Of a stretch of 64,000 bases of DNA, positions 10,221-30,404 are shown in pieces. This stretch comes from Dyella sp. BiH032 (lineage in GTDB: Bacteria; Pseudomonadota; Gammaproteobacteria; Xanthomonadales; Rhodanobacteraceae), in contig NZ_CP134867.1 in assembly GCF_031954525.1 (NCBI RefSeq), positions 3,286,001 through 3,350,000 of the forward strand, read 5' to 3'. The notes beneath the pieces are model-generated. The model had not been told where the DNA came from. It was given only the letters and a program-made list of their open reading frames with translations, and searched no databases. The first letter of the stretch is position 1, and the number at the start of each line of letters is the position of its first letter. The translations under genes and the position numbers were made by a program.

Positions 10221-12662
10221 ATGAACATGTACGCCTCGGCCAGTGTGGCCAGCGAACTGGAGCCGCGCGAGCGGCACGTGGTGGAGATGCGGGCGCGGCG
10301 CCTGCGCGAGGCGCATGCGGAGTTCGCCGCCTGGGCCGAAGGCTATGGCGTGATCCAGCACGACCCGCTGACCCAGGTGCGCGTGCACGCCTGGGTGGAA
10401 GAACTGGCGGCGCGCGGTTGCGTGGTCGACGCCAGCGAAGCCTACCGCCGCTTGCGCGCGGCCGACCGCGTAGCCAGCGCCGGGATGTGGCTGGTCGCGC
10501 ACATGACCTATGCCCGCCGCGTGCGCGCCGACGGCGCGCCGTTGGGAGCGGAAGACTTCAAGGAGCATCCGGAAGGCCATACCGGTGGTTCCCTCAATAT
10601 GGTTCCGGCCTACGTGGGCTATCTCGTCATGAACGCGCTGGACGGCGTCACGCGCTCGTGGCTGATGGGCCAGGGCCATTGCGTGGCGGCGATCGATGCG
10701 GTCAACCTGCTGGTGGACAACATGCTGCCCGCGCACGCCCAGCGCTACGACCGTAGCGATGCCGGGCTCAGCCGCTTCGTCAACGACTTCTACGCTTACA
10801 CGATCAATCCCGATGGCACGCCGGCGTCCCCGCTCGGCTCGCACGTCAATGCGCACACCGCGGGCGGCATCATGGAAGGCGGCTATCTCGGCTTCGCGGA
10901 ACTGCAATACGTGCACGCGCCCCTGCCGGACGAACACCTGGTCGCCTTCCTCAGCGATGGTGCCTTCGAAGAACAGCGCGGCAGCGACTGGGCGCCGCGC
11001 TGGTGGCGTGCGGAAGATTGCGGCCTGGTCGCGCCGATCATCATCCTCAACGGCCGGCGCATCGAGCAGCGCAGCCAGATCGCCCAGCAAGGCGGCGAGC
11101 GCTGGCTGGAAAACCACCTGCGCCTCAACGGCTTCGATCCGCTGGGCCTGGACGGGCGCGACCCGGCGAGCATCGCCTGGGGCATCGCCTCGATGGAACT
11201 GCGCGCCAGCGCCAATGCGCAGGACGAAGAACTCGACGTGCGCCTGCCCTACGGCATCGCCGAGACCGTGAAGGGCTACGGCTTCCCCAACGCGGGCACG
11301 AACGCCGCGCACAACCTGCCCCTGCCCGGCTCGCCAGCCACGCATGGCGAGGCGCGTACGCTGTTCAACCAAGGCTGCGCCGCGCTGTATGTGCCGGAGC
11401 GCGAGCTGACTGAGGCCGTGGCCGCTCTCAACACGCACGATGCCCAGCGCCGCGTGCGCGAACGCGACCATGCGCTCGCCACCCGCGACGTCGCCCCGCC
11501 GATCGTGCCGCTGGTGCCTGACCGCCCGCCCGGCGGCGAAAGCTCGCCGATGGAAGCGCTGGACGAGCAGTTCGTCACCATCGTCGAGGCCAATCCGAAG
11601 CTGCGCGTGCGCGTGGGCAATCCCGACGAACTGCGCAGCAACAAGCTGGACCGCACCCTGGACTTCCTCAAGCATCGCGTGCAGGAGCCCGAGCACGGCG
11701 TGGCCGAATCGCGCACCGGCAAGGTCATCACCGCGTTGAACGAGGAGACGGTGGTATGCGCGGCGCTGGCCAACAAGGGCGGGCTGAATCTCGTCGTCAC
11801 CTACGAGGCGTTCGCGCCGAAGATGCTCGGCGCCATCCGCCAGGAACTCATCTTCGCGCGCCATCTCGGCCAGGCCGGACGTCCGCCGGGCTGGCTGGGC
11901 ATCCCGGTGGTGCTCACCTCGCACACCTGGGAGAACGGCAAGAACGAGCAGTCGCACCAGGATCCGACCTTGCCCGAAACGCTGCTGGGCGAGATGGCCG
12001 ACGTCTCGCGCGTGGTGTTTCCGCCGGATGCGCAGGGTGCCGCCGCTGCGCTCGCTCATGCGTATGCGCAGAAGGGTTGCATCACCGCGATGGTCGTGCC
12101 CAAGCGCAGCGTGCCGCACGTGCTGACGCGCGAACAGGCCGAGGCGCTGGCCAGCGACGGCGCCGTGTGGTTGCTGGGCGACGCCCTGGCTCCGCTGCAG
12201 CTGGTCGCCACCGGCGCCTATCAGTTGCAGGAAGCGATGCGCGCGCAGGCGCGGCTGGCCGAACGCGGCGTCGCCGCATCGCTCGTCTACCTGGGCGAGC
12301 CCGGCCGCTTCCGCAACGCGCGCGACGCGACCGAAGCCGCCTACGTGCACGGCGACGCCGCGGTCGCGCGCTTCTTCCCTGCCACGCCACGCGTCTTCCT
12401 GACGCATACGCGGCCCGAGCCCTACCTCGGCGCGCTGCGCCGCATCGACGAAGGCCCGGACCGGACCATCGCACTCGGCTACATCAACCGGGGCGGCACG
12501 CTGGATGCCGCGGGGCTACTGTTCGCCAACCGCTGTACGTGGGCACACGCCGTCGCCGCCGCAGCGCAGGTGATCGGGCATCCGCGCGAACACCTGTTGG
12601 GCGGGGACGAATGCGCCGCCATTGACGGCCTCGGCAATCCGCACGTTCTGTTCGCGCCCTAG
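10221..12662 (+). CDS. Phosphoketolase-family TPP enzyme (phosphoketolase or xylulose-5-P 3-epimerase)
   Basis: An 813-residue thiamine-diphosphate protein; the start has AGGAGA seven bases upstream. Residues about 115-180 hold 'EHPEGHTGGSLNMVPAYVGY' and 'SWLMGQGHCVAAIDAVNLL'. The TPP/Mg segment is 'FLSDGAFEEQRGSDWAPRWW', and the second domain has 'YEAFAPKMLGAIRQE' and 'SHTWENGKNEQSHQDPT'. Classical phosphoketolases carry a different active-site loop around H-N-G-F-S-H-Q-D-P-G. The loop here matches a branch that databases often label xylulose 5-phosphate 3-epimerase. The reaction is either cleavage of xylulose 5-phosphate to acetyl phosphate and glyceraldehyde 3-phosphate, or epimerisation of the sugar phosphate. 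Sequence alone does not decide. It is divergent from the GH51 gene. Confidence 0.85.
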   Translation: MNMYASASVASELEPRERHVVEMRARRLREAHAEFAAWAEGYGVIQHDPLTQVRVHAWVEELAARGCVVDASEAYRRLRAADRVASAGMWLVAHMTYARRVRADGAPLGAEDFKEHPEGHTGGSLNMVPAYVGYLVMNALDGVTRSWLMGQGHCVAAIDAVNLLVDNMLPAHAQRYDRSDAGLSRFVNDFYAYTINPDGTPASPLGSHVNAHTAGGIMEGGYLGFAELQYVHAPLPDEHLVAFLSDGAFEEQRGSDWAPRWWRAEDCGLVAPIIILNGRRIEQRSQIAQQGGERWLENHLRLNGFDPLGLDGRDPASIAWGIASMELRASANAQDEELDVRLPYGIAETVKGYGFPNAGTNAAHNLPLPGSPATHGEARTLFNQGCAALYVPERELTEAVAALNTHDAQRRVRERDHALATRDVAPPIVPLVPDRPPGGESSPMEALDEQFVTIVEANPKLRVRVGNPDELRSNKLDRTLDFLKHRVQEPEHGVAESRTGKVITALNEETVVCAALANKGGLNLVVTYEAFAPKMLGAIRQELIFARHLGQAGRPPGWLGIPVVLTSHTWENGKNEQSHQDPTLPETLLGEMADVSRVVFPPDAQGAAAALAHAYAQKGCITAMVVPKRSVPHVLTREQAEALASDGAVWLLGDALAPLQLVATGAYQLQEAMRAQARLAERGVAASLVYLGEPGRFRNARDATEAAYVHGDAAVARFFPATPRVFLTHTRPEPYLGALRRIDEGPDRTIALGYINRGGTLDAAGLLFANRCTWAHAVAAAAQVIGHPREHLLGGDECAAIDGLGNPHVLFAP

Positions 12663-13257
12663 CGGCGATCGACACACGCGTCGCGTGCGCACGGCGTGAA
12701 GCCGGCCGCGCGCGACGTAACATGAACGATTCGCGTGTCACATTGCTGTTACACCTGTTGTCTGCACGCACACGCAAGCTGCTGAAAAATCACGTGCGCC
12801 ACCCCGTGTCGTCAGGCTGACGACAGCCTCGTGCGCCGTTCGAGCGGTTTGCCACGATCCATCCTTCACGTCCTAACCAAATCTTCATCACTCGTGAAGT
12901 CGATTGACTAGACTCACCGGCGCCAGCGAAGCCCGGTGCGTTGTCTCCCGGGTGTTACGGTCCGGCCCGCTCCCCAGGACGGGCGGAGCCGCGCGGAACG
13001 ACCGAAAGTCTTTCGTCCCGCGCTGCGCTCCCGGTGGTTCCAACCGTTTTCGCCGGCTCCCAGCGGTGACCTCACGTTGCTCTCAAGCGCCTCGCTTGGG
13101 GAGGGGGTTCCGTTGTACGGAAGAACTGCACCTGTGCGCGGAAGCACGACCTAAGCCCGGCCGCGCCGATTTCGGGGGGCGGCCGCCGTATCGCTGCGGC
13201 CCTGTTTCGCCGCGGCTCACCGGGTAAGGGATCGCCCACGCAAGCGAATTGAACTCG
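12663..13257 (+). other. Long intergenic leader before the clan-A hydrolase
   Basis: 595 bases without a credible gene. It holds GTAACA...TGTTAC arms near 12717-12752, a perfect 8-bp inverted repeat GTCGTCAG-G-CTGACGAC at 12807-12823, and a TTGACT element at 12904 that could be a -35 box. After that come about 350 bases of GC-rich, hairpin-prone DNA leading to the start at 13258. If the TTGACT promoter is real, the mRNA leader is over 300 bases, long enough for regulation in the leader. I compared it with the c-di-GMP-I riboswitch core and saw no match. Confidence 0.5.
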
Positions 13258-14235
13258 ATGAATAAACTCGCCTACGCCGCTAAGACGTTCTTTGCTTCAC
13301 TACTCGCATCACTCGCGCTGTACGCCGGCTCCGCGCCGCTCACGCCAGCCGCCCACGCCCAGGCCGCCACGACCATCAAGGCACCGATCTACGGCGTGAC
13401 CCTGGACGACCTGTCCAAGCTCAACGGCATCCTCACCTCTCTCAGCAAGCTGCCGTACCGTCCGACGGTGCGCGTCGTGTTCGACCCGGACATGAGCGCG
13501 GCCGACTACTACCCCGCCCTGGTCAAGCTGCATTCGGTGGCTTACGTGATGGGCGAGATCATGGACTCGTACTACTTCCCCACCGACATCAACACCTACA
13601 CCGCACGCACCAAGGAACTGGTGTACGGGCTCAACGGCCTGGTCGACGTGTGGGAGATCGCCAACGAGATCAACGGCGAATGGCTGCGCGCGAATCCGAA
13701 CGGCAGCAACACGGTGGTCAATGCCCAGGAAACGCAGATCGGCCAGATGGTCGCCGCCGCCAGCTCGATCGTGAAGGGCGTGGGCGGCAAGACCGCCGTG
13801 ACGCTGTATTACAACGACGACAGCAAGGGCAACAACTGCTGGGAGAAGCCGGTCGATTACTGGAAGACGTGGCCGACCACGTTCCTGCCGCTGACCGTGC
13901 GCCAGAGCGTGGACTACGCCCTCTTCAGCTACTACCCCTACCAGGACTGCCCCGGCCTGTCCCCGTCGTGGTCGACCGACTTCGCCGCGCTCGAAAGCAT
14001 TTTCCCGAACGCGAAGGTGGGCTTCGGCGAGATCGGCACGTCGAGCATGAGCGCGCCGACTTCGGTGCAGACGAACATGATCAAGACGTACTACCCGATG
14101 GTGAATACGTTCAAGGATCCGCGCTTCATCGGCGGCTTCTTCTGGTGGTACTACGCCGAGCAGATGGTGCCGTACACGAATTCGTACTGGACGACGCTGT
14201 ATCAGACGATTGCGCCGTTGAAGGTGCCGCAGTAA
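13258..14235 (+). CDS. Secreted TIM-barrel protein, probable clan-A glycoside hydrolase
   Basis: A 325-residue exported protein (signal region 'FFASLLASLALYAGSAPL', cleavage near 'AHAQA'). The body reads as a (beta/alpha)8 barrel: 'PTVRVVFDPD' and 'SVAYVMGEIMDSYYF', then 'VDVWEIANEINGEW' with an N-E motif after strand 4 (acid/base position), and 'KVGFGEIGTSS' with a glutamate after strand 7 (nucleophile position). The end is 'FIGGFFWWYY'. This is the plan of clan GH-A, but I cannot assign a numbered family. ATG 13258 is chosen over TTG 13249; neither has a strong ribosome site. It may trim the exopolysaccharide made by the adjacent NfrAB-type locus (inference). Confidence 0.75.
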   Translation: MNKLAYAAKTFFASLLASLALYAGSAPLTPAAHAQAATTIKAPIYGVTLDDLSKLNGILTSLSKLPYRPTVRVVFDPDMSAADYYPALVKLHSVAYVMGEIMDSYYFPTDINTYTARTKELVYGLNGLVDVWEIANEINGEWLRANPNGSNTVVNAQETQIGQMVAAASSIVKGVGGKTAVTLYYNDDSKGNNCWEKPVDYWKTWPTTFLPLTVRQSVDYALFSYYPYQDCPGLSPSWSTDFAALESIFPNAKVGFGEIGTSSMSAPTSVQTNMIKTYYPMVNTFKDPRFIGGFFWWYYAEQMVPYTNSYWTTLYQTIAPLKVPQ

Positions 14236-14305
14236 GCGGGATGGTTTTCTCGCATGGGATGCGAGGTGGCTGATGGTTTTTGGCTGTTGGCCGTGTTGAT
14301 GAGAG

Positions 14306-14330
14306 ACGCCCCCGTTTGGGGGCGTTTTTT
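14306..14330 (+). terminator. Rho-independent terminator
   Basis: ACGCCCCC-GTTT-GGGGGCGT followed by a T run, 70 bases after the clan-A hydrolase stop codon. This is a strong, simple terminator for that gene and marks the boundary to the repeat block. Confidence 0.9.
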
Positions 14331-14393
14331 CTTTTTGGGGGTTTTGGCTCGGGAGTTCCGGTGGTGCTGAGGCTCGCCTCGCCCCACCTTTCG

Positions 14394-14915
14394 TCATTTC
14401 GGCGCAGGCCAGACGGAGCGCGTAGCGCGGAGAACGCCCGGAGGGCGGCGCCGAAGGGGCGAGCGCAGCGGAGTCATCCAGTGGCGACAGCGCCCGGTTG
14501 TCGCGTGTGTCGCCAGCCTTGTCTCGCCCTCGCGGGCGAGGGGTTTCGCTCTCCTGCCGGAGAGCGAGTTACTTCTTCTTTGCTTGCCCAAAGAAGAAGT
14601 AACCAAGAAGAAAAGGCACCCTGCGCGGCGCCCTCCGCAGCCTACGCTGCTCCGGGTGCGTTGAGGGCTGGCCGGGCTTTTCGATCGGGCATCCCTGCCC
14701 GAATCGAAAAGGCGGGGACGTCCTGTCCCCGCCCGCCTGCGGCGGCCTGATCGTCCAGCCCTCACCGCCGCGAAGGGAACCCGGGAGATCAAGAGCCACA
14801 CGGAGCGTCGCTTCGCTCGCTCTTGTTTTTGCTTTGCTTGCCCCGGTACCGCACTTCTCCTTCTCCCCGCCGGGGGAGAAGGCGGGATGAGGGGCGGGTG
14901 CTCGCGGGAGCGCGG
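14394..14915 (+). repeat. Multi-hairpin dispersed repeat, module A copy 1
   Basis: First of four copies in the window (others near 25284, 30405 and 50336; the last two inverted). The order of parts is constant: a hairpin CTCTCCTGCCGGAGAG; a long hairpin with arms TTACTTCTTCTTT and AAAGAAGAAGTAA around GCTTGCCC; a conserved core with 'GCGTTGAGGGCTGGCCGGG'; a hairpin with arms CTTTTCGAT / ATCGAAAAG; then GGGGACGTCCTGTCCCC; a conserved 'CCGCCGCGAAGGGAACC' block; and a closing GC hairpin of CTTCTCC/GGAGAAG type. No gene is carried. Arms vary in a paired way between copies, which points to a folded RNA or DNA form being kept. Limits are estimates by eye. Confidence 0.9.
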
Positions 14916-15480
14916 CTAGAGCGGACGTGACTTTAAAAGTCGAAGCAAAAATATGTACGCGCGGCTTGCTGCGAGAGGAAGTGCGAAGGGCTCTCTGAGC
15001 AGCGGACAGTAGGCACAAGGAACGACCATCCCCTCGCTCCGTAGGCCCCCTCACCCCGCCCTCTCCCCGGAGGGGAGAGGGAGAAGTGCGGTGCTATCGC
15101 CAGAACAAGACACGCTCACGCAACGCTCCGCGTCCTCTCCGCTTCGGCGCCTCGACGTCCCTTCCACGCACCTCAGTTCCTCTTCGAGTCGCGCGGTCCA
15201 GCAGCCGAGAAAACACCCCGTGCTCTGCTCACTCCCGCCGCGAGCCTTTGACCTCAGGCCATTTCTCTTTGGTTACTTTCTCTCGAGGCCCCCCTTGAGG
15301 GGGTTGGGTCAGCAAAGAAAAAGTAACTCGGGCGCCGGCAGGCGTCCGACATGCCCGCTGCATAAGCGGCCAGGTCGCGGATACGTAACCTTAGTGCAAA
15401 CGACGAAGAGCAGCCCCGCACACCGACGAGCCCCGACATGCCCGCTGCATAAGCGGCCAGATCACCGAGCGGTGGCTTAG
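14916..15480 (+). repeat. Dispersed repeat, module B copy 1 (joined to module A)
   Basis: Continues directly from module A and recurs, inverted and in the same order, at about 49.5-50.3 kb. Shared parts are GACTTTAAAAGTC near 14930, a run ending 'GGACAGTAGGCACAAGGAAC', the hairpin CCCTCTCCCC-GGA-GGGGAGAGGG near 15060, 'GACACGCTCACGCAACGCTC', and a hairpin pair TTACTTTCTCT/AGAAAAAGTAA around 'GGCCCCCCTTGAGGGGG'. Its end holds two diverged units (GACATGCCCGCTGCATAAGC, 87 bases apart) of the family tandemly repeated at 49.5-49.9 kb. Together A+B form a roughly 1.1-kb composite. Confidence 0.85.
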
Positions 15481-15653
15481 TGCAAACCACCAAGAACCAA
15501 CCCCACAACCAGCACACAACCAAAACACCTGCCACATAACCGACAACTCACCCAACCGCAACCGAGCACCAACAACAACCAACAACAACCACCAACCACC
15601 AACCACCACACACCACCACAATCGCAACGAACAACGACAACACCCCACCCCGC
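15481..15653. other. A/C-only low-complexity tract
   Basis: About 170 bases made almost entirely of A and C on the plus strand (runs such as ACCAACAACAACCAACAACA), so G/T-only on the other strand. It continues into the 3' end of the adjacent DUF4434 gene. No gene or promoter is seen. Strand-asymmetric tracts of the same sign, relative to transcription, occur at other gene ends next to the repeats. Confidence 0.9.
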
Positions 15654-16553
15654 TCAATCCCCCCTCAACACCCCCATCCCCTCCAAATACCGCAACTCAA
15701 AAAACAAACTATCCCCCCCGCACGGCGCCCGCTGCGCCAACGCCACACCCAACTCCCGCTCACCCAACGGCACCGCCTTGAACGCCGCATCACTGCCAAC
15801 CTGGCGAAACACCTCATAAACCACCCCCACCGCCCCCTGCCCATCGCAGGAAGCCGCCGCCGCAAGATAAACCGCACTCTCGCCGCGACTGAGGCGACCC
15901 GTGCCCGCACCATCCTGCACCCACGGCCGCACGCCGGCGCGACGCACATCGGCGAGCAACGCCGCATAGCCCGCAGGCGCCATATGTCCGGCGAAGAACG
16001 TGCTCACGTAGACCGGCCGGACCGCGACACGATCGAGCTGCCGCCGCTCCAGCGCGAGGTAATCGCGCAGCGCCTCGCGCGCTTCCGGCTCGCGCCAGCG
16101 GCGGTCGTCGATCTCCATCGGCAGGTACCAGCCGGCGATCGGGGCCTCGCCCAGATCCGCCAGCCAGCGTCGCGCCACTTCGGCATCCTGGCGGGCCAGC
16201 GTACGCAGGTAGTCATCCAGCGAGGAAACAGGCATTTCCTGGCGCTGGAAGAACGCCGGATCGCTGTGCAGCCCCAGCACGATGCGCAGCCCGGCGGCGT
16301 GCGCCTCGCGAACCCGCTGCAGCAGCCACGCATGCCCGGCTTCGTCGCCGAAGGCATCGCCGTACTGCGTCCACTGAACCACCAGGGTGTCGAAGCCGCG
16401 TCCGCGCACCTGCGCGAAGACCCCCGGCCATTGCGCGGCCGCCACGTCGCGGTCGCGCAGTTGCGGCTGATAGAACAGCGCCGTGGCGGCGTCGGCCAGC
16501 CACGAGGCTAGCAGCAACACCAGCGCCAACGGCCAGCGCAGGCGCGTCACCAT
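15654..16553 (-). CDS. Secreted DUF4434 protein (YbcH-like) of the NfrAB-type operon
   Basis: A 299-residue exported barrel-like protein. The signal peptide is 'LRWPLALVLLLASWLADA'. 'ALFYQPQLRDRDV', 'GFDTLVVQWTQYGD', 'GLRIVLGLHSDPAFF', 'IAGWYLPMEIDDRRW' and 'VYVSTFFAGHMAP' are DUF4434 hallmarks. E. coli YbcH, encoded beside nfrA and nfrB, belongs to the same family, which supports a periplasmic role in handling or hydrolysing the polymer. The start lies inside the end of the nfrA-like gene (7-base overlap), so the genes are coupled. The last 20 codons switch to G/T-rich codons (TTT, TTG, GGG, AGG), unlike the rest of the gene, next to the repeat block. Confidence 0.82.
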   Translation of the reverse strand: MVTRLRWPLALVLLLASWLADAATALFYQPQLRDRDVAAAQWPGVFAQVRGRGFDTLVVQWTQYGDAFGDEAGHAWLLQRVREAHAAGLRIVLGLHSDPAFFQRQEMPVSSLDDYLRTLARQDAEVARRWLADLGEAPIAGWYLPMEIDDRRWREPEAREALRDYLALERRQLDRVAVRPVYVSTFFAGHMAPAGYAALLADVRRAGVRPWVQDGAGTGRLSRGESAVYLAAAASCDGQGAVGVVYEVFRQVGSDAAFKAVPLGERELGVALAQRAPCGGDSLFFELRYLEGMGVLRGD

Positions 16554-19444
16554 GCCGTCCTCACGATCAGGAACAGCGCGTTCTTCTCGCGCAGGTAGCT
16601 GGTGAAGGCATGCTGCCCTTCGATCGCCACGCTGACGCGATGCGGATAGGCGTCGTAGCGCGTCTCCCCGTACCACAGGTTCCACTGCACCCCCAGGCCG
16701 ACGCGGCCGTCGCGCTGGAAGCTGCCGCGGTTACGGTCGATGCCGGTGTACTGCAACCGCGCGTACGGCTGAATCGACTGGCCATCGGCGAGCTTGTGAT
16801 GCCAGCCGAGCTGGTAGTCGGCGGTGAACACCGTCTGCTTCGCGCGCAGGTAGCGCGCCACGTCCACGTAGAAGTTCTGCGACCACCAGCCGCGCCCGCC
16901 GGGGTGCCAGTCGTCGTTGAGACGAGGGCTGAACGACCACGACCCGGCCGCGCGCAGCATGGTGTCGTTGCGGGTGAAGCGGCTGCCCGACACCGGCGTC
17001 TGCTGCTCGGCCGACAGCACGATGTTCTGGGTGAGGAAAGGCTTCCAGTGCAGGCCCACGCCCAGCATCCAGCCGTGGATCGGCCACACCGCGCCGCTGT
17101 CGCCGCTGCCGGCGAAGACGCGCGCGTAGGCCGCCAGCGTGTTGATGTCGCCGCCGGTCCAGCGCGGGTCGAAGCGGTACTGCCCTTCCATCTGGAAATA
17201 GCTGCGGTACGAGGTGCCGGGATTGGCGGCGTTGGCTGCCGACGAGACGGTGTCGCCCAGCGTCATGTCGGCGTTGAAGCGCCACTTGCGCCCCAGGTCT
17301 TCGTGCAGGCGGCGCAGGTCGTAGCGCTGCTGCCCCTCGTCCTGCGGCACCGTGCCGCCGTCGGTGCCCCCCATGCCGCCGGCATCGAGCTGGTCGATCG
17401 CCTGTGCGGCGTAGCTGCGCGCCTGCGCGTTGTCGCCCAGTTGCTGGTGTACGTAGAGCAATTGCCAAGTGAGCTTGGGATCGTCCGGATTGGCCTGGTG
17501 CGCGCGCTCGAACTGCGCCACCGCCAACTCGGGCGAGCCGTTCTGCAGATAGGCGTAGCCGAGCTGCGCGGCGAGCTTGTCGTCGTCGGGCGCCAGCACG
17601 GCCGCATGCTGCAGGGATGCCAGCGCGAGCTTCGAGTCGCCGGCCTGGGTCTGCAGGGCGGCCAGGCGCTGGTAGTAGCGGGCTTGCGGGTGCTGCGCGA
17701 TGGCATTTTCCAGATCGGTGCGCGCCAGTGCGGGATCCCGCGGCTCGTCGGCCTGCGCGCGCAACCACCAGTAGGCATGGTCCTGCCGCCCGCCCTGACC
17801 CGCGTAACTGTCGAGCCAGGCGCGCGCGACGGCCGGCTGGTCGGCGGAAAGCGCGGTGGTGGCGGCGGCCAGCAGGTCGTCGGTTTTCATGCGCTCGACC
17901 GGCACCGCGCGCCACGCCTGCAAGGCCGTGGCGTAGTCCTTCGCGCCGTAAGCCTGGTAAGCCAGCGCGCGCGTGGTGTCCGGATCGGGCTTGCGCTTGT
18001 TGGCTTCGGCGTAGGCGTATTCGGCCAGGCCCGGACGATCGCTGCCGTAGCAATCGCCCAGCTGGCGCCACAACTCGGCCGGGTAATCGGGGGACAGGTC
18101 GGACATGACCTGGCGGATGCCGTCGCAGTCGCGCAAGGCGGCCAGGATCGGCACCTGGGCGATGCGCAGCGGCACGCTCTCCAGCGGCCGCGCCAGACGG
18201 ACGCGATCGTCGGCGGAGAACGCCTGCGCCTGCTTGGCTGCGAGTACGGCCAGCCGCGCGAACAGCGTGCCGGCTTGCGGATGGCCGCCGAAGGGATAGG
18301 ACGCCAGCAGCAGCCGCTGTGCCTCGTCCGGCGCGCCGGCTTCCATCAGCCGGTAGCTCAGCGGATCGAGCAGGCGATGCCCGTCCGCCTGCGCCACCAT
18401 CGCCTCGGCCTGCTGTCGCGCTTCGGCGTAGCGCCCTTGCTCCAACGCCAGGGAAAAACGCTCCTCGCGATAGCTGTCCTTCGGCAGTCGCGCCAGCAGG
18501 CGCTGCACGGCCGCCTCGTCATGGCGCGCGGCTGCCAGCGGCAAGGCGGAACGCGCCTGCCAAGCGCTGTTGGCCGGGAAATGCGCGGGGTAGAGGTCGA
18601 GCAGCTCCGGCCGCTCCCGCCCCACCTGCGCGAGCAGGTTGATCCATTGCCGTTCGCTCTTCTCGTCGTCGAACGCCGGCTGGTGCAAGGCCAGGTAATC
18701 CGCCAGCGCCCGCCGTTCGTTCGCCGCGGACAAGGCCAGCGCCACGGCCAGCTCCTGCGCCGGGGCGCCCAGGCCGCCGCGCGCCTGCAGGTCGCGCGCC
18801 TCGATAGCCCTGCCCTGCATCAGCAGCAGGTTGAACCATTGCGCGCGCTCGTCGCCGCCGAGCTGGCCCAGCGCGTCCAGCGCCGCCAGCTGCGCGTCGG
18901 CGCGGGGGCGGTCGCCCAGATAGATCGCGCGCTGCACCAGCGCACGGCGCAAGGCGAGACCTTCCGGCGAGCGCGCGAAGTCCGCGGCGGCCAGTTCCGC
19001 CTGCGCCTGATCGAGATGGCCCGCCTGCAAGGCATCGAAACCCCGCTGCGCCCGGCATACCGGACGGTTGTCGACCTTGCAGTCCACCGCCGCCTGAGCC
19101 GGTGGCGGTGCGCGCAGGCGCGGATCGTCCGGCGTGTAGCGGCGCTGGTCGTCGAGCACCGCGCGCGCGCGGTCGGCGTGGCCGAAATGGCGGTACGCCT
19201 CGGCCAGGTCCAACGCGGTGTCGATGTTGCGCGGCGCCAGCTGGCGCGCGCGCTCGAACTCGGCCAGCGCAGTGCGCTCGTCGCCCGCGCGCAGCGCCGC
19301 GAAACCGGCCTGCCGGTGGGGATACAACAGGAATTGCTGATAGCGGCTGGCGCTGTCGGGCTGCTGGCCCGCCGCGCAAAGCGGCAAGGCCGGTGCCATC
19401 GCGAACAGCGCGGCCGCACAACGTGTCGGCCATGGGCGTTTCAT
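16547..19444 (-). CDS. nfrA: NfrA-like outer-membrane TPR/beta-barrel exopolysaccharide exporter (phage N4 receptor type)
   Basis: A 965-residue precursor. The signal peptide ends near 'LPLCAAGQQ'. TPR-like helical repeats run from about residue 30 to 660 ('GDERTALAEFERARQLAPRN', 'LQNGSPELAVAQFERAHQAN', 'DDPKLTWQLLYVHQQLGDNA'). The last 270 residues are beta strands typical of the NfrA C-terminal barrel and end on 'FLIVRTAW'. In E. coli, NfrA is the outer-membrane receptor of phage N4 and acts with NfrB in polymer export. Here it overlaps nfrB by four bases (ATGA) and the DUF4434 gene by seven, so one message is expected. The barrel loops are the likely phage-exposed part. Confidence 0.88.
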   Translation of the reverse strand: MKRPWPTRCAAALFAMAPALPLCAAGQQPDSASRYQQFLLYPHRQAGFAALRAGDERTALAEFERARQLAPRNIDTALDLAEAYRHFGHADRARAVLDDQRRYTPDDPRLRAPPPAQAAVDCKVDNRPVCRAQRGFDALQAGHLDQAQAELAAADFARSPEGLALRRALVQRAIYLGDRPRADAQLAALDALGQLGGDERAQWFNLLLMQGRAIEARDLQARGGLGAPAQELAVALALSAANERRALADYLALHQPAFDDEKSERQWINLLAQVGRERPELLDLYPAHFPANSAWQARSALPLAAARHDEAAVQRLLARLPKDSYREERFSLALEQGRYAEARQQAEAMVAQADGHRLLDPLSYRLMEAGAPDEAQRLLLASYPFGGHPQAGTLFARLAVLAAKQAQAFSADDRVRLARPLESVPLRIAQVPILAALRDCDGIRQVMSDLSPDYPAELWRQLGDCYGSDRPGLAEYAYAEANKRKPDPDTTRALAYQAYGAKDYATALQAWRAVPVERMKTDDLLAAATTALSADQPAVARAWLDSYAGQGGRQDHAYWWLRAQADEPRDPALARTDLENAIAQHPQARYYQRLAALQTQAGDSKLALASLQHAAVLAPDDDKLAAQLGYAYLQNGSPELAVAQFERAHQANPDDPKLTWQLLYVHQQLGDNAQARSYAAQAIDQLDAGGMGGTDGGTVPQDEGQQRYDLRRLHEDLGRKWRFNADMTLGDTVSSAANAANPGTSYRSYFQMEGQYRFDPRWTGGDINTLAAYARVFAGSGDSGAVWPIHGWMLGVGLHWKPFLTQNIVLSAEQQTPVSGSRFTRNDTMLRAAGSWSFSPRLNDDWHPGGRGWWSQNFYVDVARYLRAKQTVFTADYQLGWHHKLADGQSIQPYARLQYTGIDRNRGSFQRDGRVGLGVQWNLWYGETRYDAYPHRVSVAIEGQHAFTSYLREKNALFLIVRTAW

Positions 19445-21684
19445 GCCACGCGCTCCGTCCACTGCTTGACCAACTGCACCGGGGGCGCGGCCTCCTTGTC
19501 CAGGAGCGTCGCGATATCCGGCTGCAGCGTCGTTTGCAGGGCCAGCAGGCGGTCGAGCGTGTCCTGGCTGATGACACCTTGTTCCACCAGGAAAGCGCCC
19601 AGCGGCTTTCCGCTGCGCGCATGGCTCAACAGCAATGCCTTGAATGCCACCTCGTCCAGGTGCCCCTGCGCCACCAGGATCTCGCCCAGCATCACCTGCC
19701 GGGATACATAACTGTCCCACAGCGAATGCGCGCGCCCGGCATCGATGCGCCCGCTGCGCGTGGCCGCGTCCAGCAGGCTGCGCGGATCGCGTTCCTGCCC
19801 GGGCGGCGGCGCGTACCAGTGGCGCAGGCCGACGGTGACCTGCCCCTTGTGCGCGATGACGTAGCGCACCGGCCGGTCCAGCTTGCGCGCGATCGCCGCC
19901 AGCGATACCGGATCGACGTACGCCTCGCTCGCCAGCACCAGCGTGCCGCCCTCCACCCGCAGCGGCAGCACGGCGTAGTGCAGCGCCACCTTGGCGGGCA
20001 CCGCGTCGATCAGTTCGCGCGGCAACGCTTCCGGGTCCACCGGTTCGCAGGCCACGCCGATCTGCTCGGCGACCGGCCGCGCCAGCTGCGCCGGCGTGAT
20101 CACGCCTTCGTGGATCAGCGCGCTGCCCAGCTGCAGGCCTTCCACCGGATGCGCCTTGATCTCGCGCAGCCGCGCTTCCGACACCGTGCCTTCGGCCACC
20201 AGCATCTCGTCGAGCGAGCGCTTGGCGCGGTTCTCGCCGCCGATGCTGGGAAAATCGTGCGTGGTCTTGTCCCAGGCCACGCGGCGCGGGTCGCCCGTCT
20301 GCACGATCTGCTTGATCGCGCGCCAGTTGGCGAGGAAGTTGACCAGGTTGCTCCACAGCAGCCGCGGGATCGCGAGCAGTCCCTGCTTCACGCCGTAGTA
20401 GCCGGAGACGAACACGATGCGCTGCAGGATGCGGTTACACATCAGGCCGGCATTGGCTGCCAGCACCGCGCCGAACCAGGCCTGTCCCTCGAAGATCGAG
20501 ATGAACCGCGGCGCCGCCGGCCAGGCCTGCTGCAGCAGCCAGATCAGGCCGAGCTGGATCGCCACCAGCATCGCGCTGAAGCTGACGAAGTTGGCGATGG
20601 CGCCCTTGCGGTCGCGCCACAGGAAATAGTTCAGCACCAGGCCGTGCTTGCGCTTCCAGCCGTGCGTGCGATAGCCCTGGTAGACGATGCCGATGATCCA
20701 GCGCGATTTCTGCCGCACCGCGGTGGACAGGCGATCGGGGAAATACTCGCGCACGCAGATCACGTTCGATTCGCGCCGGCTCTGCCCGAACGGCTGCGGA
20801 CGCGCGTGCCGCCGGTAGCGCAGCACTGGGAAGCGCACGAAGATCTCCTGCATGCCGCGCGCCTTCAGGCGCAGGCCGATGTCGTAGTCCTCGGTCAGAC
20901 TCTGCACGTCGAAGGCGATGCCGTTGCCCTCTTCGATCAGCGCCAGCACCGCGCGGCGGCTGAAACAGGTGCCCACGCCGGCGCTGGGCACCTGCCCGGC
21001 CAGCGCCTCGCGTACCGGCACGTCCTTGCCGTGCAGCTCGGCGAACTCGTCCAGGTAATGCAGGCTGGTGAAGTTGTTCCACTGCCGCTCGAACGGGTAC
21101 ACCGGAATCTGGATCAGATCCTTGCGCCCCACCAGGAAGTTGAACAGGCGCAGCTCCAGCTGGCAGACCACGTCCTCGGCGTCGTGCAGAATGAAACCCT
21201 CGAAGCTGATCTTGGCGCGCCGCTCGAATTGCATGATCGCGTCGAGCACGTTGTTGAGGCAGTCCGCCTTGCTGGTCGGGCCTGGGCGCGCGCACACCAC
21301 TTTGTGGACGTTGGGGAAGCGCGCGCTCACTTCGTCCACGTCGCGCTGCGTGTCCGGATCGTTCGGATAGGTACCGACGAAGATGTGGTAGTTCTCGTAA
21401 TCCAGCGTGCTGGCCGCCAGCTCGGCCATGTGGCCGATCACGCCAGTCTCGTGCCAGGCCGGCACCATGATCGCCAGCGGCTTCTCCGCCGGGCGGTACA
21501 GCTCGTGGTAATAGGTGCGGTCATGCTTGCGGTAGACCACCAGCGCCTTCCACGCGCGGCGCGTCCAGTACACGCAGTCGATGAACAGGTCGTCCAGGCC
21601 GCTGATCAGCATCAGCACGGCAATGACCGACACGGCCACGCCCAGGCCGTAGAGATAGGTCGTGAAGATATCTAGCCACCACAT
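19441..21684 (-). CDS. nfrB: NfrB-like GT2 glycosyltransferase with MshEN c-di-GMP-binding repeats
   Basis: A 747-residue inner-membrane synthase. One membrane helix lies near residues 8-30. A family-2 glycosyltransferase domain follows, with 'LHDAED' (166-171), 'TEDYD' (264-268) and 'QKSRW' (325-329), which are the D-x-D, TED and Q-x-x-R-W motifs of processive synthases. Membrane helices lie near 365-385 and 400-420. The C-terminal part has MshEN-type segments ('LGSALIHEGVITPAQL' near 519, 'LGEILVAQGHLDEVAF' near 666, 'LGAFLVEQGVISQDTL' near 695), the family that binds cyclic di-GMP. In E. coli, NfrB polymerises a ManNAc-containing polymer when c-di-GMP is high. The start lies 24 bases after wecB. 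Confidence 0.92.
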   Translation of the reverse strand: MWWLDIFTTYLYGLGVAVSVIAVLMLISGLDDLFIDCVYWTRRAWKALVVYRKHDRTYYHELYRPAEKPLAIMVPAWHETGVIGHMAELAASTLDYENYHIFVGTYPNDPDTQRDVDEVSARFPNVHKVVCARPGPTSKADCLNNVLDAIMQFERRAKISFEGFILHDAEDVVCQLELRLFNFLVGRKDLIQIPVYPFERQWNNFTSLHYLDEFAELHGKDVPVREALAGQVPSAGVGTCFSRRAVLALIEEGNGIAFDVQSLTEDYDIGLRLKARGMQEIFVRFPVLRYRRHARPQPFGQSRRESNVICVREYFPDRLSTAVRQKSRWIIGIVYQGYRTHGWKRKHGLVLNYFLWRDRKGAIANFVSFSAMLVAIQLGLIWLLQQAWPAAPRFISIFEGQAWFGAVLAANAGLMCNRILQRIVFVSGYYGVKQGLLAIPRLLWSNLVNFLANWRAIKQIVQTGDPRRVAWDKTTHDFPSIGGENRAKRSLDEMLVAEGTVSEARLREIKAHPVEGLQLGSALIHEGVITPAQLARPVAEQIGVACEPVDPEALPRELIDAVPAKVALHYAVLPLRVEGGTLVLASEAYVDPVSLAAIARKLDRPVRYVIAHKGQVTVGLRHWYAPPPGQERDPRSLLDAATRSGRIDAGRAHSLWDSYVSRQVMLGEILVAQGHLDEVAFKALLLSHARSGKPLGAFLVEQGVISQDTLDRLLALQTTLQPDIATLLDKEAAPPVQLVKQWTERVA

Positions 21685-21708
21685 CCTGGTGTCCCCTGTT
21701 CCGCCCGG

Positions 21709-22821
21709 TCAGACGGCTTCGCGCCGCCGCTCGCTGCTTTCCAGCGCCCCCTGCAGCCGATCGACGATGCGCTCGCTGGCCCGGCCGTCGCCGAACGGGT
21801 TGCCCGCGTGCGCCATCGCCGCATAGGCAGCATGGTCCTCCCACAGTTGTTCGATCTGGCCCACGATCGACGCGCGGCGCGTGCCGGCCAGGCGCGCGCA
21901 GCCGGCTTCGATCGCTTCAGGCCGCTCGGTCTCGGTGCGCAACACCAGCAAGGGCACGCCGAAGGTCGGCGCTTCCTCCTGCAGGCCGCCGGAATCGGTC
22001 AGCACCAGCCAGGCATCGATCAGCGCCTGTTGCATGCGCAGGTAATCGAACGGCCCGCTCAGGTGCACATTGGCCAGCTCGCCGAGAATGGCGTGCACCG
22101 GCTTGCTCACCGTGGGATTCAGGTGCACCGGGAACAGCACGTCCAGCTCCGGGTGATGGCTGGCGACGTCGGCGATGGCATAGCAGATCTCGCGCAGGTC
22201 GCTGCCCCAGTTCTCGCGGCGATGCGCGGTGACCAGCAGGTGGCCGCGGCCCGTGGCATGGCGGCCCAGGCGGCGGTGGCGCGTGACCCAGTGCTGCGCG
22301 TCGATCACCGTGTTGCCAGTGACGGAGACGCCATCGTCCGCGATGCCTTCCGCCCGCAGCGCCTGCGCGGCGCGATGGGTCGGCGCGAAATGGAAGGTCG
22401 CGATGCGGCTGACCATCTGGCGCAGGCCTTCCTCCGGAAACGGCCGTCCGAGGTCGTACGTGCGCAGCCCGGCTTCCACGTGCGCCACCGGCACGCGGTG
22501 GTAGAAGCCGGCGAGCGCGCCGAGGAAGGTGCTTTCGGTATCGCCCTGCACCATCACCAGCGACCAGGGCTGGCTGGCCATGACGCCGTCCAGCAGGGTG
22601 CGGCAACGTGTGCTGAACTCGCCCAGGCTTTCGCCGCCGCGTTCCAGCTCGATGTCCGGCTCGATGTCGAAACAGGCCAGCATCTGCCGTGCCATGTCGC
22701 CGTGCTGGCCGGTGTGCAGCCAGCGGGGCCGGGCCCAGCCGGTGGCGCGCAGGGCGTGGTACACCGGCGCCAGCTTGATGATCTCCGGGCGTGTACCGCA
22801 GACGATCAGGATGTCTTGCAT
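21709..22821 (-). CDS. wecB: UDP-N-acetylglucosamine 2-epimerase
   Basis: Interconverts UDP-GlcNAc and UDP-ManNAc in the cytosol. The 370 residues agree with the family length. Visible motifs are 'VCGTRPEIIKLAPV', 'MVQGDTESTF', 'VAHVEAGLRT', 'VTAHRRENWG' and 'DSGGLQEEAP'; the residues known to bind UDP and carry out catalysis (the Glu of VEAG, the His/Arg of HRREN, the DSGG loop) are present. A strong ribosome site (GGGGGAAGGAAG) precedes the ATG. As first gene of the operon it supplies UDP-ManNAc to the NfrB-like synthase, as WecB does in the E. coli pathway, where wecB sits elsewhere in the genome. Confidence 0.95.
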   Translation of the reverse strand: MQDILIVCGTRPEIIKLAPVYHALRATGWARPRWLHTGQHGDMARQMLACFDIEPDIELERGGESLGEFSTRCRTLLDGVMASQPWSLVMVQGDTESTFLGALAGFYHRVPVAHVEAGLRTYDLGRPFPEEGLRQMVSRIATFHFAPTHRAAQALRAEGIADDGVSVTGNTVIDAQHWVTRHRRLGRHATGRGHLLVTAHRRENWGSDLREICYAIADVASHHPELDVLFPVHLNPTVSKPVHAILGELANVHLSGPFDYLRMQQALIDAWLVLTDSGGLQEEAPTFGVPLLVLRTETERPEAIEAGCARLAGTRRASIVGQIEQLWEDHAAYAAMAHAGNPFGDGRASERIVDRLQGALESSERRREAV

Positions 22822-23220
22822 ACGCTTCCTTCCCCCTCAGGATGATGCGCTGGCCCAGGTGAGACGACGGTCGTACCGGACGCCTCCCCCTCGGGGATGT
22901 CCGGTCGTCCGGGGCCCTGGCACCCGGAAAGACGATGTCGGCTGAAGGAGTCTGCGCGGGATGGCTGGACTGGATCAGGCGCTACGTTTTCGGCCCGCAT
23001 ATTGGCCGCGTGCCCGGCGTCTGGCGATTGACTGAAAGCCATACCTCCACAGGACAGTAAAAACGCGTCGCGCGGCCCCTTAAGCTGCATGCTCGGGGCG
23101 ATGCCGCTCCATCTCGGGAACAGGGACCTGGGTCATGGCATGCGATCGTCCAGCCACCGCGCGCACGTGCACGGCTCCCGTGCCGCGCGCCGTCTCCATC
23201 GCAGCATGTGAGGAACTCCC
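22822..23220. promoter_or_regulatory. Divergent control region between wecB operon and DUF2334 gene
   Basis: About 400 bases with no gene. It must hold the promoter of the wecB-nfrBA-DUF4434 operon and that of the DUF2334 gene. An imperfect hairpin CCGGAC...GTCCGG (22877-22905) lies in the wecB leader, 57 bases before its start. I found no clean sigma-54 (TGGCAC-N5-TTGC) element. Shared control of both sides is likely from the arrangement but not shown. Confidence 0.5.
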
Positions 23221-25026
23221 ATGACCAGGTCCCGTTTCAAGCCTCCCGTTCTGAGGTCGATCCTCGCCACTGCCGCCCTGGTATGGGCCGCAGGACTGGC
23301 CTCCCTCTCCCACGCGCAGACGGCCGAACACGCCGGCATGAGCACCTTGCCGGCACCACCCGCGCCGCCGTCGGCAACGCTTCCGGACAGCCAGATCCGG
23401 AAGACCACGTTGTCGTCGCTATCGACGCTTTCCACGTCGTCGACATCCACGAGTTCCGGCACGACGTTCCGCCTGTCGCTGTCCGCCAACCTCCTCGGCG
23501 GCGTACCGAACGCCTTCGCCGGCGCGCCCGGTGCCAACGCCAACCAGAACACCCTGGTGCTGTACGACAGCTCCGGCACCTGGGGCTGGCTGGGCGAGGC
23601 CTACGGTGTGATGGCGGGCCAACTCGTATCCCACGGCAGCAAGTTCACGCTGCATAGCGCTGCCAGCTACGTGGCCGGCGAACTGAACGGCTACACGGGT
23701 CTGGTCTACGTCGGCTCCACGTATGACGAGCCGTTGCCCACGGCGTTGCTGGACGACGTGCTAGCCACCACCAAACCGGTGCTGTGGATGAACCACAACA
23801 TCTGGCAGCTGGCCGCACGCTCGCCGAACTTCGGCGCGCAGTACGGCTTCACCCCGATGTTCTTCGACTTCAGCAATACGCTGACGATCAACTACAAGGG
23901 CGTGGCGCTCCAGCGCAACGCGCTGGCAGTGGCCTCGGGCCTGCTGCAGACGACGATCGTCGATCCGGCGAAGGCGCAGGCGCTTGCGGTGGCGTCCAAC
24001 GACGTGGGCGGCACGGTCAACTGGGCCACCAAGGGCGGCAATCTCACCTACATTGGCGAGATTCCCTTCAGCTACACCGGCCCCAACGACCGCTACCTGA
24101 TCGCCGCCGACCTGATCGGCAAGGTCTCCAATCCGGCCATGCCGGCGCGCAAGCGGGCACTGGTGCGCATCGAGGACGTCAACGCGGATACCGATCCGGC
24201 CGAACTGCGCGCGATCGCCGATTATCTCGCCAGCAAGAAGGTGCCGTTCTCCGTCGCGGTCATTCCCGTCTACAAGGACCCGAATGGCTTCTACAACAAC
24301 GGCGTGCCGCTGACGCGGCGGCTGTCCCAGGCGCGTGGCGTGGTCAATGCGCTCAAGTACATGCAGTCCAAGGGCGGCACCTTGATCATGCACGGCTACA
24401 CGCATCAGTACTCGAACGTGGCCAATCCCTACAGCGGCGTATCGGCCGATGACTTCGAGTTCTTCCGCGCGCATATCAGCGCCGACAACTACGTCGTCTA
24501 CGACACGCCCGTGGCGGAGGACTCGGCGCTGTGGACACAGATGCGCCTGACCAGCGGCCTGCTGGAATTCGCCGCCGCGGGTTTCCTGGCGCCGACCATC
24601 TTCGAACCGCCGCACTACGCGGCCTCGGCGGTCGACTACCAGGTGATCCACAACCAGTTCGGCGTGCGCTACGACCGCGGTCTTTACGCGGCCGGCTGGT
24701 GCCCGAACGGTGCCTGCGGCACGGGCACGCCGGATTACACGAGGATCTACGGCCAGTTCTTCCCGTACCTGGTGCGCGACATCTACGGCTCCACGGTGAT
24801 CGGCGAGCAGCTGGGCAACGTGGAGACGCAGGAGTTCAACCACAATCCGCCCCGCTTCCCTGCGGACATCCTCTACAGCGCTCAGCGCAACGTGGTGGTG
24901 CAGGACGCGGTGCAGAGCTTTTTCTTCCATCCCTACGTGAACATCAGCTACCTCAAGCAGATCGTCGAGGGGCTGCAGGCGATGGGGTACACGTTCGTTC
25001 CCGCCAATACGGTGAAGCAGGGGTGA
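23221..25026 (+). CDS. Secreted DUF2334 protein, polysaccharide-deacetylase-like
   Basis: A 601-residue exported protein. The signal peptide ends near 'SLSHAQ'. A Pro/Ser/Thr-rich linker covers residues 40-80. Residues 110-300 form an alpha/beta domain ('TLVLYDSSGTWGWLGEAYGV', 'GLVYVGSTYDEPLP'). Residues 310-600 form the DUF2334 domain, related to NodB deacetylases: 'ALVRIEDVNADTDP' (metal Asp position), 'IMHGYTHQYSN' (two His), 'IFEPPHYAAS', and 'SFFFHPYVN' near the end. Domain order recalls periplasmic de-N-acetylases of exopolysaccharide systems such as PelA. Its position, divergent from wecB-nfrBA, suggests de-N-acetylation of the polymer. The E. coli locus has no such gene next to it, as far as I know. 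Confidence 0.85.
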   Translation: MTRSRFKPPVLRSILATAALVWAAGLASLSHAQTAEHAGMSTLPAPPAPPSATLPDSQIRKTTLSSLSTLSTSSTSTSSGTTFRLSLSANLLGGVPNAFAGAPGANANQNTLVLYDSSGTWGWLGEAYGVMAGQLVSHGSKFTLHSAASYVAGELNGYTGLVYVGSTYDEPLPTALLDDVLATTKPVLWMNHNIWQLAARSPNFGAQYGFTPMFFDFSNTLTINYKGVALQRNALAVASGLLQTTIVDPAKAQALAVASNDVGGTVNWATKGGNLTYIGEIPFSYTGPNDRYLIAADLIGKVSNPAMPARKRALVRIEDVNADTDPAELRAIADYLASKKVPFSVAVIPVYKDPNGFYNNGVPLTRRLSQARGVVNALKYMQSKGGTLIMHGYTHQYSNVANPYSGVSADDFEFFRAHISADNYVVYDTPVAEDSALWTQMRLTSGLLEFAAAGFLAPTIFEPPHYAASAVDYQVIHNQFGVRYDRGLYAAGWCPNGACGTGTPDYTRIYGQFFPYLVRDIYGSTVIGEQLGNVETQEFNHNPPRFPADILYSAQRNVVVQDAVQSFFFHPYVNISYLKQIVEGLQAMGYTFVPANTVKQG

Positions 25027-25092
25027 CGGTTTTTGTCTGACGCCGTCCGGCGGGTTCTTCTCCCGAGGGGAGATGGAGCCGGCTGGCGGATG

Positions 25093-25147
25093 AGGGGCCC
25101 TGAGGGAGCGGTGAGTTTGTCCCGCTCCGGATGGGGCCCCTTTTTTT
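25093..25147 (+). terminator. Terminator of the DUF2334 gene
   Basis: A two-part stem: outer AGGGGCCC/GGGGCCCCT enclosing inner GGAGCGG/CCGCTCC, followed directly by seven T. It begins 67 bases after the DUF2334 stop codon. Confidence 0.8.
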
Positions 25148-25283
25148 GGCTAGGGTGTAAGTCGGGGTGGGTTTGTGGGGCTTGGCTGGTGTGGATGGGG
25201 GCTGGCTCGCCGGCTGAATCGGCGTAGGTTGGGGTGAGTTCGCGAACCCCAACGGACGCGAAGGGACGCCTCACGCTCACATC

Positions 25284-25750
25284 TTCGTCATTCCGACGTA
25301 GGCCGGAATCTAGTGACGACAGCGCTCGGTTGTGGCCTCGTGGCCAGCCATGTCTCGCCCCTCGCCGGGCGAGGGTTCGCTCTCCTGCCGGAGAGCGAGT
25401 TACTTCTTCTTGCTTGCCCAAGAAGAAGTAACCAAGAAGAAGGGCCCCCTGCGCGGCGCCCTCCGCAGCCTACGCTGCTCCGGGTGCGTTGAGGGCTGGC
25501 CGGGCTTTTCGATCGGGCATCCCTGCCCGAATCGAAAAGGCGGGGACGTCCTGTCCCCGCCCGCCTGCGGCGGCCTGATCGTCCAGCCCTCACCGCCGCG
25601 AAGGGAACCCGGGAGATCAAGAGCGCGACGGAGCATCGCTTCGCTCGCTCTTGCTTTGTTTGTTCTTGCAGCGGTACCGCACTTCTCCTTCTCCCCTCCG
25701 GGGAGAAGGCGGGATGAGGGGCGGGTGCTCGCGACAACGCGTCTAGAGCG
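25284..25750 (+). repeat. Multi-hairpin dispersed repeat, module A copy 2
   Basis: Same order of hairpins as copy 1. The long arms are one pair shorter on both sides (TTACTTCTTCTT / AAGAAGAAGTAA), so length is kept equal between arms. It is entered through an extra inverted repeat ATTCCGACGTAGGCCGGAAT (25291-25310), a common short repeat type in proteobacteria. It ends near the AC-rich DNA before the beta-helix gene. Copy 3 at 30405 is its inverted partner, so the two bracket the 25.8-30.4 kb island. Confidence 0.9.
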
Positions 25751-25842
25751 ACGTCACTTGAAAACCAATCCTCACCGCCAGCGCTGGCAAAAAAACACCT
25801 TCATCCTTCGCAACCGGCCAATCTCGAAACCAAGCAACTTTT

Positions 25843-30332: not shown

Positions 30333-30404
30333 TCACTTTTAAGCAGCGGGCGTCAACATAACGCCAACTTCCGTCATAAGCGACTTCAGCTTGCGCGATG
30401 TTTT

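Follow-up and report, generated by a model that had tools for sequence, protein, structure and literature searches.

Gene content and organization of the locus

We analysed an exopolysaccharide-type locus of Dyella sp. BiH032 (Rhodanobacteraceae) within a window of 64,000 nucleotides (contig NZ_CP134867.1, positions 3,286,001 to 3,350,000; window positions are used below) from a genome of 5.25 Mb. The genes wecB, nfrB, nfrA and DUF4434 (ybcH) occupy positions 15654-22821 on the minus strand in an order that has been published before, and the locus is the soil-bacterium version of the known on-demand sugar-polymer system of Escherichia coli. The original prediction had these four genes right and overlooked two features: a DUF2334 gene divergent from wecB, and the differing states of two MshEN modules in NfrB, the second of which is probably where cyclic di-GMP (c-di-GMP) acts. 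The features are as follows.

15654..16553, minus strand: DUF4434 (ybcH), predicted periplasmic triosephosphate isomerase (TIM)-barrel protein, glycosidase-like (PF14488, 102.2 bits)
16547..19444, minus strand: nfrA, export protein with tetratricopeptide repeats (TPR) and an outer-membrane barrel (NfrA_C PF13283, TPR_19)
19441..21684, minus strand: nfrB, inner-membrane family 2 glycosyltransferase (GT2) synthase with two MshEN motif modules (PF13632, PF05157)
21709..22821, minus strand: wecB, non-hydrolysing uridine diphosphate (UDP)-N-acetylglucosamine (GlcNAc) 2-epimerase, which makes UDP-N-acetylmannosamine (ManNAc) (PF02350, 335 bits; TIGR00236)
22822..23220, no strand: divergent intergenic region, presumed promoters of both units
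23221..25026, plus strand: DUF2334 (YdaL-like), predicted secreted polysaccharide deacetylase resembling carbohydrate esterase family 4 (CE4), divergent from wecB

The coordinates of the operon and its junctions were reproduced: wecB and nfrB are separated by a 24-base gap, nfrA (ATG at 19444, end at 16547) overlaps nfrB by 4 bases, and DUF4434 (ATG at 16553, end at 15654) overlaps nfrA by 7 bases. The predicted gene identities and operon layout were likewise upheld by family matches and by identities with E. coli proteins. WecB matched Epimerase_2 at 335 bits and TIGR00236 (wecB) at 394.9 against a cut-off of 210; NfrB matched GT2 at 120.6 bits and Pfam MshEN at 41.9 bits (residues 551-627), with the processive glycosyltransferase motifs LHDAED, TED (264) and QKSRW (325) all present; and NfrA gave NfrA_C at 137.8 bits in addition to TPR. 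When compared to the NCBIfam equivalogs, NfrB scored 1143.5, narrowly under the cut-off of 1170, and NfrA (590.5; cut-off 1223) and YbcH (290.5; cut-off 344) were clearly below theirs. Identity with E. coli K-12 was 63% for NfrB, 37% for NfrA, 44% for YbcH, and 44% for the WecB of the enterobacterial common antigen (ECA) pathway. The DUF4434 gene stands downstream of nfrA, as in the NfrBA-YbcH system.

The gap between wecB and DUF2334 aligned only in short, moderately conserved blocks. No palindrome of the Clp/CRP consensus type was present in 15 sequences of this gap, and no Rfam match indicating a riboswitch was found in 12500-31000.

A divergent DUF2334 gene accompanies the operon

DUF2334 begins 399 bases from wecB on the opposite strand. 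Its distribution was examined across 147 genomes sampled from the family, 15 with NfrA_C (the window's own among them) and 132 without. A divergent DUF2334 homologue stood beside wecB in 15/15 NfrA-positive genomes, with two tandem copies in one (G040), and genome-wide matches of at least 172 bits occurred in 15/15 NfrA-positive versus 0/132 NfrA-negative genomes, the best match in any of the latter being 105.8 bits over part of the domain only. Shared descent weakens this count, so a wider, class-wide sample of 369 genomes was examined, of which 7 (again including the window's own) were NfrA-positive and 362 NfrA-negative. DUF2334 matches of at least 124 bits were found in 5/7 NfrA-positive versus 3/362 NfrA-negative genomes (p = 2e-8; 7e-7 without the own genome). 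The lines for a strong match (172 bits for the family, 124 for the class) were set after gaps in the lists had been seen, the next scores being 105.8 and 98.9 bits.

Four of the five NfrA-positive carriers in the class sample had DUF2334 linked to the Nfr locus, and in the fifth (G182) it lay on another contig. Among the NfrA-negative carriers, G298 (locus L134, 265-10770) combined BcsB, WecB, a TPR protein, a GT2/MshEN synthase, a divergent phosphomannomutase-like gene and DUF2334. In the other two, no tie between DUF2334 and Nfr was supported: the gene belonged to a capsule-like cluster in G451 and stood beside proline dehydrogenase at a contig end in G260. In five Burkholderiales loci (L072, L075, L077, L079 and L081), DUF2334 stood at the 3' position otherwise taken by DUF4434, which was itself not found in these loci; DUF2334 was located on the same strand beside wecB/nfrB in L043 and beside DUF4434 in L046.

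These data bear on a simpler explanation, in which the locus is an ordinary NfrBA-YbcH system like that of E. coli and the pseudomonads and DUF2334 is a separate gene that is a neighbour by inheritance. DUF2334 was not found in 69/80 named nfrB loci within the flanks examined, nor at the E. coli nfr locus, and it lies on the opposite strand in Dyella, with a second copy elsewhere in the genome G078, all of which such a neighbour would fit. However, its linkage recurs in distant groups (the seven loci from L072 to L046 listed above), and the class-sample contrast also speaks against mere adjacency. We consider this explanation unlikely.

Tandem duplication of DUF2334 was also observed, with three copies in the Burkholderiales locus L072 (15459-20822) and two in the Dyella locus L027 (4177-7864). 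DUF2334 proteins of Kutzneria, Lentzea and other actinobacteria (P0095-P0120) were approximately 55-65% identical to that of the window, hinting at inter-phylum transfer.

Predicted folds of the DUF2334 and DUF4434 proteins

Sequence searches against solved structures returned nothing convincing for DUF2334 and no significant match for DUF4434; both folds therefore rest on AlphaFold models. The DUF2334 model had a mean predicted local distance difference test (pLDDT) score of 81.6, with residues 1-94 disordered. Its best matches were CE4 polysaccharide deacetylases, which have a NodB-like fold, followed closely by an allantoinase that shares this fold; the N-terminal domain of PgaB (3vus) ranked 47th. 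Candidates for the Asp-His-His metal triad and the acid/base residues of CE4 enzymes were sought in an alignment of 34 sequences: D319, H395 and H465 were invariant, H391 and H570 were conserved in at least 90%, and Glu318 stood at the base position. The conserved motifs RIEDV (D319), HGYTH (H391, H395) and FFFHP (H570) lie where NodB motifs are expected, the catalytic motifs having been assigned by position against the NodB pattern. DUF2334 is predicted to be a secreted CE4-like deacetylase.

DUF4434 was modelled as a TIM barrel of eight strands (mean pLDDT 93.3). Its E147 lies close to where beta4 ends and its E247 where beta7 ends; the two residues were invariant in 35 sequences ranging from E. 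coli to Thalassospira. Glycoside hydrolase (GH) clan GH-A is defined by a TIM barrel with catalytic Glu residues ending beta4 and beta7, and the model fits this layout. The best VIA rows were mainly glycosidases, namely 4h41 (annotated as a putative fucosidase), beta-galactosidases, a GH164 beta-mannosidase and GH5 mannanases. They also included beta-amylases, which are not known to belong to clan GH-A, and Foldseek returned a heterogeneous list that contained sugar epimerases and other proteins at low template modelling (TM) scores. We regard DUF4434/YbcH as a putative periplasmic glycosidase. In E. coli, ybcH is dispensable for infection by phage N4 and partly matters for motility (Junkermeier & Hengge 2021, PMC8669469), a combination that a glycosidase role, if true, would fit.

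The two MshEN modules of NfrB are in reciprocal states

MshEN domains bind c-di-GMP through two 24-residue motifs with Arg-Leu-Gly, Leu, Leu and Gln contacts, and a change of Gly11 in MshE abrogates binding (PMC5013675). In E. coli NfrB, the matching glycine was changed in the G491L variant, which abolished N4 killing in one of two studies and caused the most severe loss in the second (Sellner et al. 2021, PMC8669472; PMC8669469). Two modules of this kind were located in the Dyella NfrB.

20062..20217, minus strand: MshEN module 1 (NfrB residues ~490-541); Asp492 replaces the key Gly of motif A and Lys510 its guanine-contact Leu; L519 G520 retained in motif B
19534..19692, minus strand: MshEN module 2 (NfrB residues ~665-717); L666 G667 and L695 G696 intact; no Arg at the motif starts (M665, P694)

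The proposal that the C-terminal repeats of the synthase bind c-di-GMP had to be divided between them: the module tested in E. coli lacks ligand residues here, whereas the second keeps most of them. Across 17 distinct Rhodanobacteraceae sequences, the position of the key glycine of module 1 held Asp in 13 sequences, Glu in three and the glycine itself in one, and the guanine-contact Leu was polar or charged in 15, with Ala and Val in the remaining two; in the other NfrB rows with letters at this position, the glycine was retained in 74/74. The motif-A glycine of module 2 showed the opposite pattern, being present in 17/17 Rhodanobacteraceae and replaced by Ala in 13/13 Enterobacterales with letters, so that the enterobacterial pair is the mirror image of the Rhodanobacteraceae pair. 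Pseudomonas kept it in 25/25, and elsewhere (n = 35) there were 25 Gly, 7 Ala, 2 Pro and 1 Thr. The NCBIfam c-di-GMP motif (NF053729) matched the window's NfrB at 61.5 bits in two stretches, the better at residues 666-717; the best stretch was in module 2 for the window and 4/4 relatives and in module 1 for E. coli, a second stretch passing in each.

Module 2 is nevertheless imperfect in the window: Arg is absent from both halves, and Phe and His replace one Leu and one Gln. This would suit an alternative in which NfrB is not c-di-GMP-controlled in Rhodanobacteraceae, module 1 being dead, module 2 a structural relic, and regulation transcriptional. In 16/17 sequences, Asp or Glu occupies the very glycine position of module 1 at which substitution abolishes N4 infection of E. 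coli and, in MshE, ligand binding (PMC8669469, PMC8669472, PMC5013675), and one distant NfrB (locus L043, 511 amino acids) has no c-di-GMP motif match. Against this alternative, module 2 keeps both Leu-Gly pairs in 17/17 sequences and provides the best stretch over the NCBIfam cut-off in the window and all four relatives, indicating that it is conserved and not decaying; we hold the alternative to be improbable. The c-di-GMP site in Rhodanobacteraceae NfrB is probably the second, C-terminal module rather than the first, as far as the residues can tell, and the simplest reading of the module states would be an ancestral pair with reciprocal decay. The opposed module states amount to a natural experiment on the site of c-di-GMP action.

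On an NfrB tree of the "quick" kind, which gave long-branch warnings, module 1 needed 2 changes and module 2 needed 5 to account for their states, gain and loss being indistinguishable. Of 96 NfrB rows, six were removed before the tree was built: L047, L049 and L051 (identical to others), L056 and L099 (short frames), and L117 (3.8-kb contig). The NfrB rows of three relatives were identical to those of named records, which belong to Dyella subtropica, Dyella nitratireducens and Oleiagrimonas soli.

Several unusual nfrB loci were noted. Locus L043 (G349, 13977-19097) has DUF2334, wecB and nfrB on one strand, and its short NfrB is possibly an unswitched form. Short nfrB frames despite full tblastn coverage were found in L056 (122 amino acids), L099 (44) and L067 (550), from Hafnia alvei, Rheinheimera sp. 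D18 and an E. coli strain, and may represent broken genes, sequencing errors or frame choice. Rheinheimera faecalis (L102) carries two nfrB-nfrA copies within a single locus.

wecB linkage and the supply of UDP-ManNAc

The supply of UDP-ManNAc by WecB, as originally proposed, is supported by the gene, its family and its conserved catalytic residues: the window WecB keeps all residues matching D95, E117, E131 and H213, which we take to be the catalytic residues of E. coli WecB. The operon copy is the sole full-length epimerase and the only one over the cut-off in the genome. A candidate second WecB, a sub-cut-off PF02350 match of 29.7 bits over profile positions 198-346, was rejected as probably another GT-B protein; its frame had no NCBIfam match, and similar matches of approximately 25-40 bits occurred in many family genomes. 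The genome yielded no match to the WecG-family transferase. It contains four dehydrogenases over the Pfam cut-off, of which three were classified as one Ugd-like and two TviB-like, and none of these three exceeded the WecC cut-off (the fourth, the strongest match, L127, lay outside the classification).

In the family sample, 14/15 NfrA-positive genomes had their epimerase match on the contig of the NfrA_C match, starting 5.2-5.7 kb from it; in the fifteenth (G015), the contig ends inside nfrA, and both pieces carry the expected genes. The related genomes thus keep wecB in a consistent arrangement. Epimerase matches of at least 100 bits occurred in 15/15 NfrA-positive versus 41/132 NfrA-negative genomes (p = 1.4e-7). 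Ten of the 15 had no epimerase besides the linked one, and G012, G013, G067, G068 and G104 retained the linked copy even though they possess another. Among the 80 named nfrB loci, wecB was present in 54, directly upstream of nfrB in 49 of those; it was found in 25/25 Pseudomonadales loci and, within the flanks examined, not found in 12/14 Enterobacterales loci. Linkage required 8 changes on the NfrB tree, with its state set to unknown near contig ends.

NfrB homologues have been reported in 406 species beyond E. coli, and every nfrB organism without the WecB of another pathway is stated to have wecB directly linked to nfrB, a linkage already used as evidence for UDP-ManNAc (PMC8669469). The same text describes nfrB, nfrA and ybcH as an operon, reports the MshEN domain and notes associated GGDEF genes for the majority of pseudomonads. 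We therefore do not regard the linkage as new, and the original main claim becomes that of a new member of a published arrangement. As for the DUF2334 gene, the second MshEN module and YbcH as a glycosidase, no mention was found in the open-access text, a scope that leaves aside figure panels (e.g., PMC8669469 Fig. 7B) and supplements.

The polymer might instead not be ManNAc-based, with NfrB using UDP-GlcNAc or both sugars and WecB serving another glycan. The identity of the E. coli NfrB polymer is a proposal in the texts consulted, and in Dyella a PgaD match and two TviB-type dehydrogenases suggest that other amino-sugar polymers may exist in the genome. However, wecB lies inside the operon as the sole full-length copy, its linkage recurs across the named loci, and N4 infection of E. 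coli needs wecB and not wecC (PMC8669469, PMC8669472) nor other ECA components (PMC8669472). We accordingly give a polymer without ManNAc little credence.

Two further observations concern polysaccharide genes elsewhere in the genome. The two TviB-type dehydrogenase genes (L129, L130) are near-identical, suggesting a duplicated polysaccharide locus, and the PgaD match (G000:C1:4611898-4612284) indicates that a poly-GlcNAc type system may coexist.

Comparison with known systems and proposed pathway

The closest counterpart is the E. coli NfrBA-YbcH/NGR system with WecB (NfrC), which has nfrB, nfrA and ybcH in the same order, the same glycosyltransferase plus MshEN architecture and the same proposed sugar donor. 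The Dyella locus differs in that wecB heads the operon, DUF2334 is divergent from it, and the second c-di-GMP module is the better kept, rather than the first. In the wecB-nfrB-nfrA-ybcH loci of Pseudomonas (P. soli type, PMC8669469), wecB is directly linked to nfrB as in Dyella, whereas both MshEN modules keep their glycines (25/25) and no DUF2334 was found.

PgaB combines a deacetylase and a glycosidase, and PgaC/PgaD sense c-di-GMP. E. coli PgaABCD shares with the Dyella locus the roles of GT2 synthase, TPR/barrel exporter and periplasmic deacetylase plus glycosidase; it differs in its sugar, whereas in Dyella each enzyme role has a protein of its own and c-di-GMP sensing would fall to MshEN.

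Similarities also exist in Gram-positive bacteria. The Pss polymer of Listeria has a beta-1,4-ManNAc backbone carrying alpha-1,6-galactose (PMC10172500, PMC5422440) and is made by a GT2 enzyme under c-di-GMP control with a BcsB orthologue (PMC4125290), and the CE4 protein PssB is required for surface-bound Pss (PMC4817252, PMC6307706). In Bacillus, catalysis for the Yda polymer, itself called unknown, is ascribed to YdaL, YdaM and YdaN (PMC9800504); for this polymer, alpha-galactose and/or GalNAc (N-acetylgalactosamine) residues were reported in 2026 (PMC13274460); this neither shows nor excludes ManNAc there. The Listeria pssA-E and Bacillus ydaJKLMN operons thus share with Dyella a c-di-GMP-controlled GT2 polymer, whereas they sense c-di-GMP through a degenerate GGDEF protein instead of MshEN, and the BcsB orthologue PssD replaces NfrA. 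Some DUF2334 relatives are named YdaL by their sources, and B. subtilis gives a DUF2334 match. We suggest that Listeria PssB may belong to DUF2334; if so, one deacetylase family would recur with ManNAc polymers in two phyla, and locus L134, with BcsB, WecB, GT2/MshEN and DUF2334, would look like a mixed form.

We propose the following pathway. WecB would convert UDP-GlcNAc to UDP-ManNAc, which, by homology to E. coli, NfrB would polymerise across the inner membrane and NfrA would export as a chain through the outer membrane. c-di-GMP would switch NfrB, probably at the C-terminal module 2 to judge from its residues. With folds and residues computed, the secreted DUF2334 protein may deacetylate some of the ManNAc units and the periplasmic DUF4434 barrel may trim the chain, jointly taking the role of the two PgaB halves. 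In view of the CE4 protein that the Listeria ManNAc polymer likewise requires, we favour a ManNAc polymer that is partly de-N-acetylated. Taken as a whole, an Nfr-type exopolysaccharide with a module 2 switch, a DUF2334 deacetylase and a DUF4434 glycosidase is the model that we hold, with moderate confidence, to be correct. The locus combines a dedicated wecB, nfrB and an enzyme family whose name links it to a c-di-GMP polymer operon of Gram-positive bacteria, and it lends itself to a direct chemical test of polymer identity.

A broader idea is tentative and, in our judgement, doubtful: Nfr, Listeria Pss and Bacillus Yda could be branches of one c-di-GMP-switched ManNAc-polymer machine, with DUF2334 as its cross-phylum de-N-acetylase. 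The Rhodanobacteraceae product would then be a partly deacetylated, cationic poly-mannosamine, with YbcH as its glycosidase and the c-di-GMP site moved to module 2 by reciprocal decay.

Diguanylate cyclase, phages and a neighbouring gene

The original prediction had also pointed to a diguanylate cyclase gene 14 kb away. The gene is present, a GAF-GGDEF protein at 227-1414, 14.2 kb from the operon and the nearest of its kind. Its proximity carries no weight, since the genome contains 20 GGDEF matches and random placement would bring at least one this near with p ~0.13; a role in the system was rejected at this chance-level distance. Most pseudomonads, by contrast, have an associated GGDEF gene (PMC8669469), and Dyella has none nearer than 14 kb.

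Regarding a possible N4-type receptor, N4 gp65 was matched in 118 phage records (60 rows listed), named after Escherichia, Achromobacter, Pseudomonas, Acinetobacter, Campylobacter, Delftia, Serratia and others; among the matches listed, none was named after this host group, two being named only "Bacteriophage". Phage spikes have themselves been described as glycan deacetylases (PMC8669472), and one may speculate that deacetylation of the polymer by the host could matter for phages with such spikes.

An open reading frame of 328 amino acids at 13249-14235 on the plus strand had no Pfam, NCBIfam or solved-structure match. It is convergent with the operon and was present in 10/15 loci from 14 related genomes.

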